Shown piece after piece: positions 20,856 through 63,333 of a stretch of 64,000 nt of DNA (positions are counted from its first letter, which is position 1; the number at the start of each line of letters is the position of its first letter). The position numbers and the translations under genes were made by a program. Origin of the DNA: Sporanaerobium hydrogeniformans (GTDB lineage: Bacteria; Bacillota; Clostridia; Lachnospirales; Cellulosilyticaceae). The stretch lies in contig NZ_PEDL01000003.1 in the NCBI RefSeq assembly GCF_002735925.1, positions 124,001 through 188,000 of the forward strand, given 5' to 3'. The notes beneath the pieces were generated by a model, which did no database searches, was not told the DNA's origin, and saw nothing but the letters and a program-made list of their open reading frames with translations.

Positions 20856-20870
20856 AGGAGGTTGAACCCT

Positions 20871-21266
20871 ATGAACGTTGCACTCATTGCACACGATGCA
20901 AAGAAAAAGTTAATGGAAAATTTCGCAATTGCGTATCGCCATATTTTAATGAAGCATACCTTATATGCGACTGGAACAACGGGAAGACTCGTAGAAGAGG
21001 CAACAAATTTAAATATTTATAAGTATTTAGCAGGACATTTAGGTGGGGCACAGCAGTTGGGCGCACAAATTGCTCACAATCAAGTGGATATGGTGATTTT
21101 TCTAAGAGACCCTGTTTCTCAGAAACCTCACGAACCAGATTTAGGAAGTATAGAAAGATTATGTGATATTCACAATATACCTATTGCTACCAATTTAGCA
21201 ACAGCTGAACTCCTTGTAAAAGCCTTAGAAAGAGGCGATTTAAGTTGGCGTGAGGTTATGCGATAA
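20871..21266 (+). CDS. mgsA: Methylglyoxal synthase
   Basis: Converts dihydroxyacetone phosphate to methylglyoxal and phosphate, a bypass of lower glycolysis under phosphate limitation. [13 protein letters not shown] opens the protein, followed by [17 protein letters not shown] and [17 protein letters not shown], the phosphate-binding and catalytic Asp segments. 131 aa from ATG 20871, nine bases after AAAGGAGGTT. It closes the rodA transcript; the placement next to rodA is common in Clostridia (from memory). Confidence 0.94.
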
Positions 21267-21364: not shown

Positions 21365-21622
21365 ATGGGAGAAGTAAAGAGAAAGAGACCATGGGAAGAT
21401 AAGCCAAAAGAAGAGCCCACTACATTTGCAAATGATCTTTTGAATCAAATACTCATTTGTACTGTAATAGGTATAGGAGCGTTTCTTGTGCTAAATACTA
21501 AAGAAAGCACGAAATGGAAAGACACTTTTCAACAAGAAATTTCTAAGAATATAGAAATAGAAGATTTACAAAAGTGGGTTAAAAAAGGAAGAGAAGTGAT
21601 TCGTGACTATACTTTAAAATAG
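21365..21622 (+). CDS. Unknown 85-aa single-span membrane protein
   Basis: Not recognised. The start at 21365 follows AAGAGGTGAG. Layout: charged cytoplasmic N terminus rich in Lys/Arg/Pro (RKRPWEDKPKEEP), one hydrophobic helix (about 30-46, ILICTVIGIGAFLVL), then an amphipathic helical tail of about 40 residues (EIEDLQKWVKKGREVIRD). The radical SAM gene starts 25 bases after it. In related genomes I recall M23-type spoIVFA and M50 spoIVFB genes between mgsA and the radical SAM pair. This protein has the topology of a SpoIVFA N terminus without the LytM domain, so it may be a remnant or a shortened form; that is a positional inference. Confidence 0.6.
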   Translation: MGEVKRKRPWEDKPKEEPTTFANDLLNQILICTVIGIGAFLVLNTKESTKWKDTFQQEISKNIEIEDLQKWVKKGREVIRDYTLK

Positions 21623-21647
21623 AATGGAAAATATACTGGAGGAAAAA

Positions 21648-23495
21648 ATGAATACAGTTAATTTATCTGATTCACTTCTAAATAGAGTGGATAAACCAGC
21701 GCGTTATATTGGAGGAGAATTAAATAGTTATAAAAAGACTATTGAAGAAGAGACAATCCGTTTTGCTTTTTGTTTTCCGGATGTTTATGAAGTAGGTATG
21801 AGTCATTTAGGTATGCAAATTTTATACCACTTCTTAAATCGTAGAGAAGATACTTTTTGTGAAAGAGTTTTTGCACCTTGGGTAGATATGGAAAAAATAA
21901 TGCGAGAAGAAAAGATTCCTCTCTTTAGTTTAGAGAGCCATAGCCCACTTAGTGACTTTGATTTTGTAGGCTTTACCTTACAATACGAAATGAGTTATAC
22001 CAATATCTTAAACATGCTAGAGTTAGGTGGGATTCCTTTATGGAGTAAGGATAGAAGAGAAGAACATCCTTTTGTTATTGTTGGGGGGCCTTGTGCGTAT
22101 AATCCTGAACCTTTAGCTAACTTTGTAGATATTGTTTATATTGGTGAAGGTGAAGTTTCCTATGATGCTTTATTGGATAAATATAAGGAATGGAAACGAG
22201 AAGGTGGAAGTCGTCAAGACTTTTTAAAACATATTGTTAAAATTCCTGGTATTTATGTTCCTTGTTTTTATGAAGAAATATATAAGGAAGATGGTACCTT
22301 AAGTAAACGTAAGAAAAATTATGAAGAAGCACCTGATACTATCAAAAAAGTTATTGTTGAAAAGATGGATGAGAGTTTTTATCCAGAAAAGCAAGTTGTA
22401 CCATGGATTCGTGCAATTCATGACCGTGTAACCTTAGAAATGTTTAGAGGGTGTATCCGAGGGTGTCGTTTTTGTCAAGCGGGTATGATTTACCGTCCTG
22501 TTCGTCAGAAAAGCAAAGAGGTATTACTTGGTTATGCTCAAAAACTTTTAGAAGCAACAGGGTACGAGGAAATTTCTCTTGCATCTTTAAGTACCAGTGA
22601 CTATAAAGAGTTACCAGCCTTTGCAGAGGAACTTATAGGGATGTGTAATGAGGAGTATGTAAATATTTCATTACCGTCTTTACGTGTAGATGCTTTTTCA
22701 GTAGATCTTATGCAAAAAGTACAAGAGGTGAGAAAAAGTAGTTTAACCTTTGCTCCAGAAGCAGGAACACAAAAAATGCGTGATGTGATTAATAAAAATA
22801 TTTCTGAAGAAGAGATTTTAAAGGGGTGTCGCCTAGCCTTTGAAGGAGGTTGGAATAGGGTTAAACTTTACTTTATGCTTGGTTTGCCTTATGAAACAGT
22901 AGAAGACGTACAAGGTATTGCAGCTTTAGCTGAAAAGGTAGCACAAACTTATTTTGGAGTAGAAAAAGAAAAAAGGCAGGCGGGCTTACAACTTGTAGTA
23001 AGTACATCTTGTTTTGTGCCTAAACCTTTTACACCTTTTCAGTGGGCAGCACAAGATAGTGCAGAAAGCTTTATGACCAAGCATAATCTGCTGAAGCATG
23101 CTATAACGCGTAGGCAAATTCGCTATAACCACCATGATGCTAAAACGAGTGTATTAGAGGCTGTTATTGCAAGAGGAGATAGACGTGTGGGCAACCTCCT
23201 TTATACAGCCTATCAAAAAGGCTGTACCTTTGATAGTTGGAGCGAGCACTTTGATGAAAACAAATGGCAAGAAGCAGCTAAAGACAGTGGGATTGAACTA
23301 GCTTTTTATGCACAACGTGAACGGAGTTATGAGGAGCTTCTGCCTTGGGAACACATTGATATTGGTGTAACAAAGCGTTTCTTAATGGCTGAAAATGAAA
23401 AGGCTAAGGCGGCTAGTACCACTCCTCATTGCCTAGAAAAATGTTCAGGATGTGGAGCAAATAAGTTAGGAAAAGGAGTTTGTCATGAAGGTTAG
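21648..23495 (+). CDS. TIGR03960 family B12-binding-domain radical SAM protein
   Basis: 615 aa from ATG 21648 (GGAGG 6 bases upstream; an ATG at 21624 has none). The N-terminal ~200 residues form a cobalamin-binding-like domain (FPDVYEVGMSHLGMQILYH). The radical SAM cluster motif CIRGCRFC lies near residue 270, followed by QAGMIYRPVR and a TIM-barrel core (LTFAPEAGTQKMRDVINKN). The C-terminal end has CSGCGAN. Function is not established. It overlaps the next gene by 11 bases; the two are a conserved pair sometimes fused, always near rng and rplU in Clostridia. Confidence 0.85.
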   Translation: MNTVNLSDSLLNRVDKPARYIGGELNSYKKTIEEETIRFAFCFPDVYEVGMSHLGMQILYHFLNRREDTFCERVFAPWVDMEKIMREEKIPLFSLESHSPLSDFDFVGFTLQYEMSYTNILNMLELGGIPLWSKDRREEHPFVIVGGPCAYNPEPLANFVDIVYIGEGEVSYDALLDKYKEWKREGGSRQDFLKHIVKIPGIYVPCFYEEIYKEDGTLSKRKKNYEEAPDTIKKVIVEKMDESFYPEKQVVPWIRAIHDRVTLEMFRGCIRGCRFCQAGMIYRPVRQKSKEVLLGYAQKLLEATGYEEISLASLSTSDYKELPAFAEELIGMCNEEYVNISLPSLRVDAFSVDLMQKVQEVRKSSLTFAPEAGTQKMRDVINKNISEEEILKGCRLAFEGGWNRVKLYFMLGLPYETVEDVQGIAALAEKVAQTYFGVEKEKRQAGLQLVVSTSCFVPKPFTPFQWAAQDSAESFMTKHNLLKHAITRRQIRYNHHDAKTSVLEAVIARGDRRVGNLLYTAYQKGCTFDSWSEHFDENKWQEAAKDSGIELAFYAQRERSYEELLPWEHIDIGVTKRFLMAENEKAKAASTTPHCLEKCSGCGANKLGKGVCHEG

Positions 23496-57657: not shown

Positions 57658-59329
57658 TTGGTACCCAAAAAAACAAAGAGCAAATTGCGCATCATTCCAC
57701 TGGGAGGACTTGGGGAAATTGGAAAAAACATGACGGTATTTGAATATGAAGAAGATATTTTCGTCGTTGATTGTGGCTTAGCTTTTCCAGAGGATGAAAT
57801 GTTGGGGATCGATTTAGTTATACCAGATATTACGTATTTGGTGAAAAATAGTCAAAAGGTAAGGGGAATTGTTCTCACTCATGGGCATGAGGATCATATT
57901 GGGGGGTTACCTTATATTTTACAAGAGTTAAATGTCCCACTTTATGGTACTAAGTTAACTCTTGGTTTAGTTGAAAACAAATTGAGAGAGCATAATTTAT
58001 TACGTTCTACAGAGCGCATCAATGTCAGTCCAGGAGAAACGATTGCTTTAGGAAAACATTTTAAAGTAGAGTTTATTCGCTCCAATCATAGTATTGCAGA
58101 TGCCGTAATGTTAGCTATTGGGACGCCTATGGGTGTTCTTATTCATTCAGGGGATTTTAAAGTAGATTATACACCTATTAGCGGTGCAACTCTTGATTTG
58201 CATCGTTTAGCAGAGCTAGGACGAAAAAAAAGTTTTAGCTTTAATGGCAGATAGCACCAATGTAGAGCGTCCAGGTTTTACTCAATCTGAAAAAATGGTA
58301 GGTCAAAAATTTGAAGATGTTTTTACGAATCATCAAGATAAGCGTATCATGGTTGCTACCTTTGCATCTAATGTAGACCGTGTACAGCAAATTATTAATG
58401 CAGCGGATAAGTTTAAGCGTAAAGTAGCAGTTATTGGACGTAGCATGAGTAATGTAGTAAAGACAGCAAGTGAATTAGGTTACTTATCCATTCCTGAAAA
58501 GATTTTGATAGATGTAAATGAAGTAAAGCGTTTTAAGGATGAGGAAATTGTTATTATTATGACAGGGAGTCAAGGAGAGCCTATGGCTGCTCTTTCACGT
58601 ATGGCTGCTTCTGAACATAAACAAATTGAAATCAAGCCCGGTGATGTAGTTGTTTTAAGTTCAACACCTATACCTGGAAATGAGAAGACTGTTTCAAAAA
58701 TAGTTAATGAATTGGCAAAAAAAGGGGCAAATGTTATTCGTGAAGATACACATGTTTCAGGTCATGCAGCACAAGAGGAACTAAAGCTTCTTCATGCACT
58801 TGTTAAACCTAAATTTTTTATCCCCGTACATGGTGAATACCGTCATTTACAAAAGCATGCAGAGTTAGCTATGGAACTAGGTATGAAACGTAATAATATT
58901 CAAATCTTATCTATTGGAGAAGTAGCTGAACTTACACAGGATACCTGTAAAATGGCAGGAACCGTTTCATCAGGTCAAGTCCTTGTAGATGGGTTAGGCG
59001 TAGGTGATGTAGGAAATATTGTACTTCGTGATCGTAAACATCTTTCACAAGATGGTCTCCTTATTGTCGTAATGACATTAGAAAAAGAATCGGGTTTTGT
59101 AGTAGCAGGACCAGATATTATTTCACGTGGTTTCGTCTATGTACGAGAAGCAGAAAATCTAATGGAAGAAGCTAAAGCAATAGTCCGTAAAGCATTAGAG
59201 CGATGTGAGCAAAAGCACATTGTAGAGTGGTCACAAATTAAAACCATTGTTAAAGATGATTTGCGTGAATTTGTATGGCAAAAAACAAAGCGTAGTCCAA
59301 TGATTTTACCCATTATTATGGAGGTTTAG
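57658..59329 (+). pseudogene. rnjA: Ribonuclease J, interrupted by a 1-base frameshift in an A8 run
   Basis: RNase J is the main 5'-3' exo/endoribonuclease of Gram-positive bacteria. Start TTG 57658 behind GGAGGTG. The first 190 residues have the beta-lactamase fold, LTHGHEDHIGGLPYIL and SNHSIADAVMLAI, and IHSGDFKVDYTP. After LAELGRKK the frame goes to stop at 58252-58254. The family sequence LALMADSTNVERPGFT continues in the next frame and is open to 59329, with GSQGEPMAALSRMA and PVHGEYRHLQKHAELA. Removing one A from the A8 at 58224-58231 gives about 556 aa, the size of B. subtilis RNase J1. A sequencing indel or transcriptional slippage are both possible; the intact remainder argues against decay. 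Confidence 0.88.
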
Positions 59330-59417: not shown

Positions 59418-60078
59418 CTATTTCAGTAGTTCTTTATATAGTTTTTTAATTGCCTTTTTCTCAATACGTGAAACATAAGAACGTGAAATTCCCATTTCTT
59501 CAGCAATTTCTCTCTGGGTTTTTTCTTCTTCATCATTAAGGCCATATCTGAGCTCAAGAATTTTTTTTTTCACGTGGTTTAAGAAGGTGTTTAATTTGAT
59601 TGTAAAGCTTTTTTATTTCAATACCAAAGTCTACTTGATCAAAGATGGTATCATTTTCCGTACATAGAATATCCAGTAAACTAATTTCATTGCCTTCTTT
59701 ATCAATACCGATAGGTGCATGAAGGGAAGTTTCGTAACGTTGCTTACGTGTTGAACGGATACTCATTAAAATCTCATTTTCTATGCAACGAGCCGCATAG
59801 GTAGCAAGGCGTGTGCATTTGCTAGGATCAAAAGAGGTAATGCCTTTAATGAGACCTATTGTACCGATAGAAATTAGATCGTCCATATCATTATTAATAT
59901 TGCTGTATTTTTTAACGATGTGTGCCACCAATCTAAGATTGCGTTCGATTAATATATTTTTAGCCTCTTCATCCCCTTGTTCATAACGTTCCAAATAATA
60001 TTTTTCTTCTTCAGAAGAGAGAGGTTGAGGAAAAGAAGAGATGCTACTAAAGTAGGAAAAGCAAAAAAGAGGAAGCAT
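59418..60078 (-). pseudogene. sigK: Sporulation sigma factor SigK, frameshifted in an A10 run
   Basis: Late mother-cell sigma factor. ATG 60078 on the minus strand after GGAGGTG. Begins with a hydrophobic pro-sequence (LPLFCFSYFSSIS) that SpoIVFB normally removes, then FPQPLSSEEEKYYL. Region 2: LRLVAHIVKKYSN, DLISIGTIGLIKGI, LATYAARCIENEILM. Translation runs into a stop just after LKPREKK. In the neighbouring frame region 4 continues (LELRYGLNDEEEKTQREIAE, ISRSYVSRIEKKAIKKL) to a stop at 59418. One A too many in the A10 run (59561-59570) explains it; the restored protein is about 219 aa. No skin-type element interrupts it. Confidence 0.87.
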
Positions 60079-60113
60079 ATAAGGCACACCTCCACAAAAA
60101 AGGGCTCATTATT

Positions 60114-60480: not shown

Positions 60481-62670
60481 TTGGAATACTATGGTAGATC
60501 AGTTCAGCAGAAAGAAGAAATTGTATATCAATTTTTAAAAGATCATTTAAAAAACGTAGCGAGATTGTGCGAAGGTTTTGTAGAACCTATTTCAGCTCCA
60601 CAAATTGGTACAATATTAGGCTATTTACATGATGTGGGGAAATATTCTGATGATTTTCAAAGGCGCATACGAGGAGAAAAAATACGTGTGTCTCATGCAG
60701 ATGCAGGGGCTAGAATTCTTGAAGAATATTATATGCATACTAAGAATCCTCTATACCGATTATTAACTTATGTTGTTTATGGACATCATAGTGGATTACA
60801 TGACTATGGAACACCAGCAAAGGGAATGTGTAAACAACTAAAAATACCTAGTACAAATGTAAGTGCATGGAAAGAAGAAATAGGAGTATTACCAGCTATA
60901 AGCCCTCAAGATTTAAAGCTTCAGTTAAGAGGAAAGGAGGAATTTGTTGGTTTTACCTTACAGTTTTATACGAGGTTTTTATTATCTTGTCTAGTGGATG
61001 CTGATCGAATTGATGCACAAGATTTCCCTAATCTAGAAGCCACTAAAGCAATGGCTGTCAATACATCTATGGAAACGCTCAAAGAACGTTATGAGCAGCA
61101 TATGACAAGATTAGCAGCAAATGCAAGAGAATCTCATTTGAACCAAATACGAAAAGGTATATTAAAAAATTGTTTAGATAAAGGAAGGCAAAAAAAAGGA
61201 ATGTATTCCTTAACTGTACCAACGGGAGGAGGAAAAACATTATCCTCTTTAGGTTTTGCTTTAACACATGCCGTTGCTAATAAGCAAAAGAGAATTATTT
61301 ATGCCATTCCATTTACGAGTATTATTGAACAGAATGCAAGTGTATTTGCAGATGTACTAGGTAAAGAGCATATATTAGAACATCATAGCAATTATGAAAA
61401 TCCGTACAACAAACAAGAGGAACTTGTTAAATTTCAACTTGCTCAAGAAAATTGGCATGAGCCTATAGTGGTTACTACAAATGTACAGTTTTTTGAAACT
61501 CTCTTTTCACATAAGGCTACAAAGGTAAGAAAGCTACATAACATAGCACAAAGTATTATTATTTTAGATGAGATACAATCTTTGCCTAATAAATATATAA
61601 AACCCTGTCTAATGGCACTTAATGAATTAGTAGTGAATTATGGATGTACTGTGGTTTTGTGTAGTGCAACACAACCAGAATATCATAAAAATAAACTTTT
61701 CTTAGAAGAAGTGAATGTAGAAGAAATGATAGAAAATCCAAGCAAGCTGTTTGAAGAATTGAAACGTACAGAGGAGCATTATCTAGGGGAGCAGACTATA
61801 GAAGAAATAGCTTGTAAGATAAGAGCAGATAGACAAGCTTTATGTATTGTTAATACTAAGAAACACGCAAGAGAAATTTTTGAACGCCTAGAAGGAGAAG
61901 AAAACTGTTTTCATTTAAGTACTAATATGTACCCAAAACATCGCAAAACAATATTATCTAGTATACGTCAATTGCTAAAAGATGATAAACCATGCAAGGT
62001 AATAGCCACTCAGCTTATAGAAGCTGGAGTAGATATTGATTTCCCTATTGTATATAGAAGTATAACGGGGATAGATTCTATTGTACAGGCAGCAGGAAGG
62101 TGTAATCGAGAAGGGAAACTAGCTAAAGGATTAGTTTATGTATTTAAACCAGAAGAAGAGTATATCGGAAAGGAATATTTAGCCCTTACTGCAGGTATTG
62201 GAGAAATGATTTTAAATAAGGAAGAGGCTTTTCTAGATTTGCCTAGTATAAGCAAATATTTTACGTACCTATTTGATATAACGCATCAAAATCTAGACTA
62301 TTATCATATTCTCCAACTATGCACTGATGGTATACAAAACCCATACGATATTAGATTTAATTTTGAAGAAATATCTACAAACTTTAAGTTTATAGACAAT
62401 CAAGGCTATTCGTTGATTATACCTAATGAGGAGTCTGTCAATGAACTGCTAGAACAAGTGAGATTTACACATAGTGTACAAGCTATTGTTAGAAAACTTG
62501 CTTCCTATACAATATCTGTTAAAAGATATGAATTAGATGGGTTAAAAGAAGAAGGAGCATTAAGAATAGTAGAAGAAACCTTAATGGTATTAGATGATTT
62601 AAAGTTTTACAATGAAGATATAGGGTTAGTTATTAAGAAAGAGCAAGATGATTTTGACTATGTAATTTAA
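60481..62670 (+). CDS. cas3: CRISPR-associated helicase-nuclease Cas3 (type I-C)
   Basis: Degrades target DNA recruited by the Cascade complex. 729 aa from TTG 60481 with AAGGGGAGA upstream. N-terminal HD nuclease (about 1-215): LHDVGKYSDDFQ with HD near 50 and HADAGARIL. Helicase: Walker A VPTGGGKTLSSLGFA near 247, DEIQ in IILDEIQSLP near 364, SATQP, and motif VI QAAGRCNREG near 540. The cas5c and cas8c genes that follow place it in subtype I-C. Base composition does not differ obviously from neighbours. Confidence 0.95.
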   Translation: MEYYGRSVQQKEEIVYQFLKDHLKNVARLCEGFVEPISAPQIGTILGYLHDVGKYSDDFQRRIRGEKIRVSHADAGARILEEYYMHTKNPLYRLLTYVVYGHHSGLHDYGTPAKGMCKQLKIPSTNVSAWKEEIGVLPAISPQDLKLQLRGKEEFVGFTLQFYTRFLLSCLVDADRIDAQDFPNLEATKAMAVNTSMETLKERYEQHMTRLAANARESHLNQIRKGILKNCLDKGRQKKGMYSLTVPTGGGKTLSSLGFALTHAVANKQKRIIYAIPFTSIIEQNASVFADVLGKEHILEHHSNYENPYNKQEELVKFQLAQENWHEPIVVTTNVQFFETLFSHKATKVRKLHNIAQSIIILDEIQSLPNKYIKPCLMALNELVVNYGCTVVLCSATQPEYHKNKLFLEEVNVEEMIENPSKLFEELKRTEEHYLGEQTIEEIACKIRADRQALCIVNTKKHAREIFERLEGEENCFHLSTNMYPKHRKTILSSIRQLLKDDKPCKVIATQLIEAGVDIDFPIVYRSITGIDSIVQAAGRCNREGKLAKGLVYVFKPEEEYIGKEYLALTAGIGEMILNKEEAFLDLPSISKYFTYLFDITHQNLDYYHILQLCTDGIQNPYDIRFNFEEISTNFKFIDNQGYSLIIPNEESVNELLEQVRFTHSVQAIVRKLASYTISVKRYELDGLKEEGALRIVEETLMVLDDLKFYNEDIGLVIKKEQDDFDYVI

Positions 62671-62682
62671 GGAGGCTTAAAA

Positions 62683-63333
62683 ATGTATGGTGTTAAATTA
62701 AGGGTATGGGGAAATGGAGCATGTTTTACAAGACCAGAAATGAAAGTAGAAAGAGTAAGCTATGATGTCATAACACCTTCAGCAGCAAGGGGGATTATTG
62801 AAGCGATACACTACAAGCCTGCAATTAGATGGATTATTGATGAGATACAGGTTTTAAAACCTATTACGTTTTCTACTATTAGAAGAAATGAAGTAAGCTC
62901 TGTATTGTCTACAGCTCATGTTAATGCAGCCATAAAAGGGAAAAAGGCAATTTACATCAATAGCAATAAGGATAGACAACAACGTGCAACACTCCTGTTG
63001 AAGGATGTAGAGTATATTATTAAGGCACATTTTGAAATGACATCACAAGCAGGAGAGATGGATACACCGGAGAAACATTATAATATTTTCTTAAGGAGAG
63101 CAAGAGCAGGACAATGTTTTAATCAACCCTATTTGGGATGTAGAGAATTTCCAGCGTATTTTGAGTTAGTAGAAGATGAGAAGTATAAGCCAATAGAGGT
63201 TACAAAAGATTTAGGATGGATGCTTTATGATATTAACTTTAAAGATAATATGAAACCAGAATTTTTTAGAGCTCAGTTAGAGAATGGTGTTATTCGTATT
63301 CCTACTGAGTTACAAAGGAGGGTTAATAGTTGA
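62683..63333 (+). CDS. cas5c: CRISPR-associated protein Cas5c (Cas5d), crRNA endonuclease
   Basis: In type I-C, Cas5 replaces Cas6 and cuts the pre-crRNA, then caps the 5' handle. 216 aa. MYGVKLRVWGNGACFTRPEM and VERVSYDVITPSAARGIIEA are the Cas5c signatures, and FLRRARAGQCFNQPYLGCREF lies in the second half. AAGGAGG precedes the ATG, 12 bases after cas3. The stop overlaps the next start by 4 bases. Confidence 0.94.
   Translation: MYGVKLRVWGNGACFTRPEMKVERVSYDVITPSAARGIIEAIHYKPAIRWIIDEIQVLKPITFSTIRRNEVSSVLSTAHVNAAIKGKKAIYINSNKDRQQRATLLLKDVEYIIKAHFEMTSQAGEMDTPEKHYNIFLRRARAGQCFNQPYLGCREFPAYFELVEDEKYKPIEVTKDLGWMLYDINFKDNMKPEFFRAQLENGVIRIPTELQRRVNS

Follow-up and report, generated by a model that had tools for sequence, protein, structure and literature searches.

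The window, by which we mean the entire 64,000-nucleotide stretch of Sporanaerobium hydrogeniformans DNA analysed here, has a single short open reading frame (ORF) encoding 85 amino acids between a gene read from its sequence as mgsA and the gene for a TIGR03960 radical SAM protein (Table 1). Its ATG start is preceded by AAGAGGTG, and one base separates its stop codon from the first ATG (21624) of the downstream ORF, whose TIGR03960 match covers window positions 21669-23483 (G000:C33:145669-147483; G000 is the genome of the window, other G numbers are related genomes, and L numbers are the loci compared). The flanking genes are those named by the initial annotation, the gene read as mgsA ending at 21266. 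That annotation also described the product as a short, single-span protein without a LytM domain lying in the place of spoIVFA and spoIVFB, and this description holds. An AlphaFold model, which is of low confidence (mean pLDDT 61, pTM 0.31) and serves here for the helix limits alone, has residues 19-44 as one long helix, and because searches of Pfam and NCBIfam gave no match at E values up to 10 we consider the protein to be devoid of a LytM domain. The corresponding place in Clostridium carboxidivorans (L285) and C. drakei (L288) is occupied by an M50 gene and by a LytM protein that is encoded in a single ORF and bears a transmembrane (TM) helix.

Table 1. Positions of the genes discussed, in window coordinates
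Feature	Position	Strand	Remark
85-aa protein, taken as a stand-alone SpoIVFA N-terminal (TM) module without LytM domain	21365..21622	+	
Gene read from its sequence as mgsA; upstream boundary of the spoIVF place	20862..21266	+	ATG probably 20871
TIGR03960 radical SAM gene; downstream boundary	21624..23495	+	start probably 21648, behind GGAGG
sigK, first part	59554..60087	-	177 aa from GTG at 60087; ATG at 60078
sigK, C-terminal part, in the other frame after an A10 run	59418..59560	-	to TAG at 59420-59418; read from sequence

Searching 59 genomes with the 85-aa protein at an E-value threshold of 0.01 yielded matches in eight, the window genome included. Those from another genus of the same family (G008, G012, G015 and G018) are 33-35% identical to it (E <=1e-11), and weaker ones were recovered from G001 of the same family (E 0.0025) and, outside the family, from G037 (6e-5) and G047 (0.001). 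Synteny across the relatives, to which the initial annotation had pointed, bears out the correspondence of place: a TM protein is found there in eight of the stretches obtained from 13 other family genomes (G001, G006, G008, G012, G015, G016, G019 and G022), those of G016, G019 and G022 being recognised by place and TM helix rather than by BLAST, and the module is likewise present in G018. The ORF is therefore not a chance ORF, and we regard it as confirmed to be genuine. In G002, G004, G007 and G011 mgsA directly adjoins the TIGR03960 gene with no module between them, and in G003, where the TIGR03960 gene has no mgsA alongside, the module was not found.

The homologue in G047 forms the front part of a spoIVFA gene and is followed by a LytM frame and then by an M50 gene. 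Comparison of ten family proteins with SpoIVFA N-termini by hhalign gave a probability of 97.0 (score 61.2) against 22 sequences of the window's order and of 94.0 (score 48.0) against 17 sequences of other orders (13 from LytM genes and four LytM-less), both probabilities being subject to the artificial rise in profile scores that TM helices cause; the match takes in the TM helix as well as the helix that follows. For the order set and the other-order set, respectively, the probability was 2.5 and 0.4 with a reversed alignment; its maximum over 30 full column shuffles was 0.3 and 0.1, and over 30 shuffles that left the TM block intact it was 77.8 (mean 7.0) and 15.1 (mean 1.4). The likeness to SpoIVFA that the initial annotation had noted is thus upheld above the best TM-keeping shuffle, and we take the 85-aa protein to be, in all likelihood, the N-terminal membrane module of SpoIVFA standing alone, made up of a basic cytoplasmic tail, one TM helix and further short helices. 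It shares with SpoIVFA of Bacillus subtilis and with LytM-containing clostridial SpoIVFA-like proteins a basic tail, a single TM helix, a helix behind it and a place adjoining spoIVFB where that gene is present, the profile match being to the clostridial N-termini and not to B. subtilis SpoIVFA. The N-terminal module, the mgsA-TIGR03960 place and a BofA in the genome are features of SpoIVFA that were found here, but unlike these proteins the 85-aa protein has no LytM domain and its genome no detected SpoIVFB.

With regard to SpoIVFB, whose absence the initial annotation had suspected, PF02163 has one match in the window genome (64 contigs, 99.66% complete), namely RseP (TIGR00054 E 6.8e-65), the gene for which is flanked by ORFs resembling dxr and ispG as read from sequence. 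We also used a SpoIVFB profile made from seven M50 proteins that adjoin spoIVFA genes and possess HExxH, N..P..PLD and a C-terminal domain; neither it nor PF02163 found SpoIVFB in the window genome. At E <=1e-6 this profile matches at least 51 of the 157 genomes of the order, some of them weakly, and none of the 15 family genomes is among the matches listed, nine family genomes below 90% completeness having been left out of this and of the BofA search. Further M50 proteins of the family, which are of about 220 residues in G002, G008 and G016 and of 385-413 residues in several cases, likewise have no SpoIVFB-profile match among those listed, where the genome was searched. A second full-length M50 protein besides RseP is encoded at G012:C21:29704-30624, in an open frame of 328 residues.

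BofA is encoded in the window genome (G000:C6:85809-86009, E 5.2e-10) and in at least nine of the 14 other family genomes (at least ten of 15 in all), and a SpoIVB match exceeds its curated threshold in 22 of the 24 genomes of the family (E 4.4e-115 in the window genome). Among the 13 family genomes with a readable place, that of the window included, nine have both the module and BofA, three have neither and one (G002) has BofA alone, as judged from the BofA matches listed; as these genomes are related, the co-occurrence is suggestive only. The absence of SpoIVFB is already known for a relative, and an ordinary explanation exists for it: the available portion of an account of sigma-K control in Cellulosilyticum lentocellum and Epulopiscium (PMC3416734), published in 2012, reports for C. 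lentocellum that bofA was found and spoIVFB was not, as in the window genome. The same portion describes SpoIVFA as absent from clostridia, unlike the present analysis, in which its N-terminal module was found.

It is conceivable that the ORF is a functionless remnant of spoIVFA, decaying since LytM and SpoIVFB were lost. Neither LytM nor SpoIVFB remains, the four genomes mentioned above lack the gene in the mgsA-TIGR03960 interval, and it evolves fast, being 33-35% identical to its counterparts in the nearest genus that gave a match. We nonetheless consider such a remnant unlikely, as against it stand intact module ORFs in ten family genomes, including that of the window, and dN/dS values of 0.12-0.44 in seven of eight family pairs. 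Moreover, LytM-less modules adjoin SpoIVFB outside the order (G176, G450 and, by pattern search, L299 of Clostridium tyrobutyricum), which argues that a module on its own can be an ordinary gene and the anchor alone a usable form. The pattern search identified short SpoIVFA-like TM modules (120-149 aa) without LytM ahead of SpoIVFB not only at L299 but also at L295 (Clostridium sp. cel8), L337 and L360.

In the window's order it is common for the TM module that precedes SpoIVFB or TIGR03960 to be closed by a stop codon, with the LytM domain following in a different frame. This layout emerges from comparison across the order and was beyond the view of the initial annotation, which had a single window to go by. 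Classified with a LytM profile (seeded with 46 LytM stretches from the same loci), 57 spoIVFA loci of the order comprise 40 split ones (counting G156, which has an overlap of 421 nt and is ambiguous), four fused ones (G052, G153, G146 and G096) and 13 without LytM, as against none split, 36 fused and 12 without LytM among 48 loci of other clostridial orders; the class without LytM takes in stretches cut by contig ends (e.g. L377), and G398 was scored through a partial LytM match. Hence, 40 of the 44 LytM-bearing loci examined in the order are split, versus none of 36 in other Clostridia. The order loci derive from 46 of the 51 SpoIVFB-profile genomes (the weak matches in G032, G055, G083, G105 and G106 being excluded), from G047 and from ten TIGR03960-anchored loci that were chosen because a pattern showed LytM there and are all split; minus these ten, the count is 30 split, four fused and 13 without LytM (n=47). 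The loci of other orders, drawn from at least 105 matched genomes, are the 28 best-scoring ones and 20 hand-picked to spread over families. Both forms occur in genus g42, where G096 and G146 are fused and G060, G102, G126 and G151 are split. At L320, from an uncultured Eubacteriaceae bacterium, the TM module and LytM also lie in different frames (~1970-2850), upstream of an M50 gene.

The LytM parts behind the stop are under purifying selection, to judge from dN/dS values of 0.06-0.19 in 14 of 15 pairs (one being undefined), which are rough in that pairs share genomes and many dS values exceed 1. The zinc motifs H.G.D and HxH are kept in all 44 LytM domains of the order compared with 15 of 36 outside it, although ten of the 44 were preselected by a pattern with H.G.D and are not independent in this respect. 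Since all 44 keep these motifs, a long anchor-LytM product could be an active peptidase.

Ten of the split loci require a +1 shift and thirty a -1 shift. All ten +1 loci, which come from three genera (g19, g60 and g76), end in CCC_TAG; the hexamer that is separated from CCC by one codon, a segment picked after seeing the sites, contains a Shine-Dalgarno (SD) match of at least 4 nt in eight cases and of 3 nt in the other two, compared with 8.5% of 1333 control windows having at least 4 nt. In the +1 signal of prfB, the gene for release factor 2, a slippery codon and a stop are preceded, at a distance of one codon, by an SD-like stretch. Our +1 sites resemble the frameshifts of prfB and of Listeria phages in this layout, differ from them in gene, function and stop (here UAG), and are known from sequence. 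For the phages, the shift is placed at CCC_UGA in the accessible part of PMC5009743. The -1 sites are less uniform: 11 are A7-A9 runs, five of which end at the stop (AAA_AAA_TAG, AAA_AAG_TAG), one is G_GGA_AAG, six are TTG_GGG, eight are CCG_GGG and four are without a clear site (for -1 motifs of Escherichia coli see PMC4066793, available in part). Strict heptamers are present in 20 of the 30 -1 loci and number 24 per 762 codons in overlaps versus 156 per 8659 elsewhere (1.75 times), an excess that is weak, and we therefore base no claim on heptamers. Downstream RNA structure, scored against 100 shuffles, gave no consistent signal in the 30 -1 loci (mean z -0.51; four of 30 below -2).

From this layout we infer that programmed frameshifting in the split spoIVFA of the order would yield two forms, one a short anchor and the other a longer anchor-LytM protein. 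Alternatively, LytM could be a separate gene translated by termination-reinitiation. Some ATG, GTG or TTG does precede the domain in 20 of the 40 LytM frames, three of these standing behind an SD-like stretch, and in G066 and G093 the stop overlaps a possible start (GGGTGA); but the other 20 frames contain no such codon before the domain, LytM-bearing loci outside the order are fused in 36 of 36 cases, and CCC_TAG with the SD layout recurs in ten of ten +1 loci, though such a stretch could also aid reinitiation. On balance reinitiation seems to us improbable. Still less probable, and in our estimation a poor explanation, is that the split loci stem from transcriptional slippage or homopolymer sequencing errors. 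Such an origin would suit the 11 of 30 -1 sites that are A7-A9 runs, and the window genome has two A-run frame breaks of its own (see below), but within a genus separate genomes repeat the same junction, the majority of the sites are of other kinds (CCC_TAG, CCG_GGG, TTG_GGG), and split loci make up 40/44 in the order as against 0/36 in other Clostridia. Transcriptional slippage at the A-runs themselves is possible and would likewise count as recoding. In the window gene itself no frameshift was seen. A T_TTA_AAA string just before its TAG (21613..21619, + strand) fits the form of a -1 heptamer, but its reading as a frameshift site was rejected: the -1 frame beyond it has about ten extra codons and the homologues end otherwise, and the string is probably there by chance.

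On this reading the 85-aa protein would be the counterpart of the short form alone. In the split spoIVFA, where the module ends at a stop, ribosomes would produce the short anchor as the basic product and, via -1 or +1 frameshifting, some anchor-LytM protein as a dosed minority. In B. subtilis, according to the available part of PMC12632252, the C-terminal region of BofA adjoins the TM segment of SpoIVFA within the SpoIVFB complex, and inhibition is released when SpoIVB and CtpB cleave the C-terminal domain of SpoIVFA. The short form would correspond to the TM part that meets BofA, without the LytM domain. We lean slightly towards the view that frameshifting, either -1 or prfB-like +1, sets the ratio of BofA-binding anchor to active LytM-anchor in the order, and that the anchor role outlives LytM and SpoIVFB, as in the window genome. 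The window's family would have lost SpoIVFB and the LytM frame and retained the short form, most likely since this form still acts with BofA in the mother-cell membrane that surrounds the forespore. The family's SigK, with a shortened extension, would not depend on SpoIVFB. Taken as a whole, this account of an anchor module standing alone, derived from an order-wide frameshifted spoIVFA and kept in its short form with BofA next to a SigK independent of SpoIVFB, appears to us reasonably probable.

Neither the identity of the 85-aa protein nor the two-frame layout of spoIVFA was found described in the open-licence literature searched, to the extent that its text was available; in the accessible portion of PMC3533761, which has both SpoIVFA and the word 'frameshift', the latter refers to disrupted genes or errors. 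The presence of such a module suggests that SpoIVFA has been overlooked in clostridia, being short, divergent and, in one order, mostly laid out in two frames. The dosing of a sporulation peptidase by frameshifting, if true, is directly testable, as is the retention of an inhibitor pair (BofA and the SpoIVFA module) without its protease.

The sigK gene of the window matches TIGR02846 with an E value of 2.4e-78, which is under the curated cut-off of that model because the frame breaks in the A10 run near 59560. The neighbouring RNase J-like gene (57658-59329, + strand) has its frame broken in an A8 run. The two family relatives compared for sigK and the one compared for the RNase J-like gene lack these A-runs, and the breaks reflect either sequencing error or slippage-tolerant sites. 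The initial annotation had ascribed a pro-sequence to sigK; a hydrophobic N-terminal extension before FPQPL is indeed present, but it measures only 15 residues from the ATG or 18 from the GTG. Of 20 family genomes, 19 have a start codon that leaves 15 residues ahead of the FPQPL-type motif (preceded by an SD-like stretch in 18 cases), the exception being G006 with 16, and an additional SD-supported start at 17-21 exists in G000 (the window's GTG, at 18), G003, G014 and G016. In the 22 SpoIVFB-bearing genomes the SD-supported start is at 19-23 in 13 of the 17 that are readable and at 16-17 in four; the window's extension is shorter than in most of these relatives. Loss of SpoIVFB is not always paired with a short extension, since the lineages f3, f8, f13, f21, f22 and f24, which have no SpoIVFB match, have extensions of 19-23 residues (f5 has about 3). 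Hydrophobic SigK extensions of 19-20 residues are found at L067, L070-L074 and L083 (f22) and at L060 and L062-L066 (f24), with no SpoIVFB-profile match among those listed, and these two lineages are more suitable than the window for asking which protease, if any, cuts the SigK extension.

In three family genomes sigK is interrupted near model position 106-115 by a skin-like insertion, of ~30 kb in G005 (L403/L404) and ~67 kb in G008 (L401/L402), where the halves lie on one contig; in G022 (L405/L406) they lie on two contigs. A large ORF, named from its sequence as serine-recombinase-like, adjoins the second sigK half in all three. The sigK of the window has no insertion. Clostridioides difficile has neither SpoIVFB nor BofA nor a pro-sequence and cannot do without skin excision, according to the part of PMC3789829 at hand; the family resembles it in that SpoIVFB was not found and in the skin-like insertions with a recombinase-like ORF, but unlike C. 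difficile the window genome keeps BofA, the SpoIVFA module, a 15-residue SigK extension and a sigK free of insertions. The initial annotation had argued that pro-sigma-K would need another protease or location if SpoIVFB is missing; given the short extension and the skin-like sigK in three family genomes, and with C. difficile known to combine the lack of SpoIVFB and of a pro-sequence with skin, a second protease need not be assumed in the window's family.

It could be supposed that BofA and the 85-aa module still restrain cleavage of pro-sigma-K, now by RseP as the last M50 protease. In this vein, RseP is the sole PF02163 hit in the window genome, BofA, SpoIVB and the hydrophobic SigK extension are all retained, and this extension is closely conserved within the family. 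However, RseP alone is among the M50 matches listed for f5 genomes too, in which SigK is nearly devoid of an extension, most SpoIVFB-bearing relatives have a longer extension than the window, and cleavage of SigK by RseP is itself hypothetical, so that we judge restraint of RseP to be quite unlikely and prefer a SigK that does not depend on such cleavage. Behind sigK, at window positions 60481-63333, lie genes named from their sequence as a cas3-like helicase and cas5-like, perhaps the start of a CRISPR-Cas locus.
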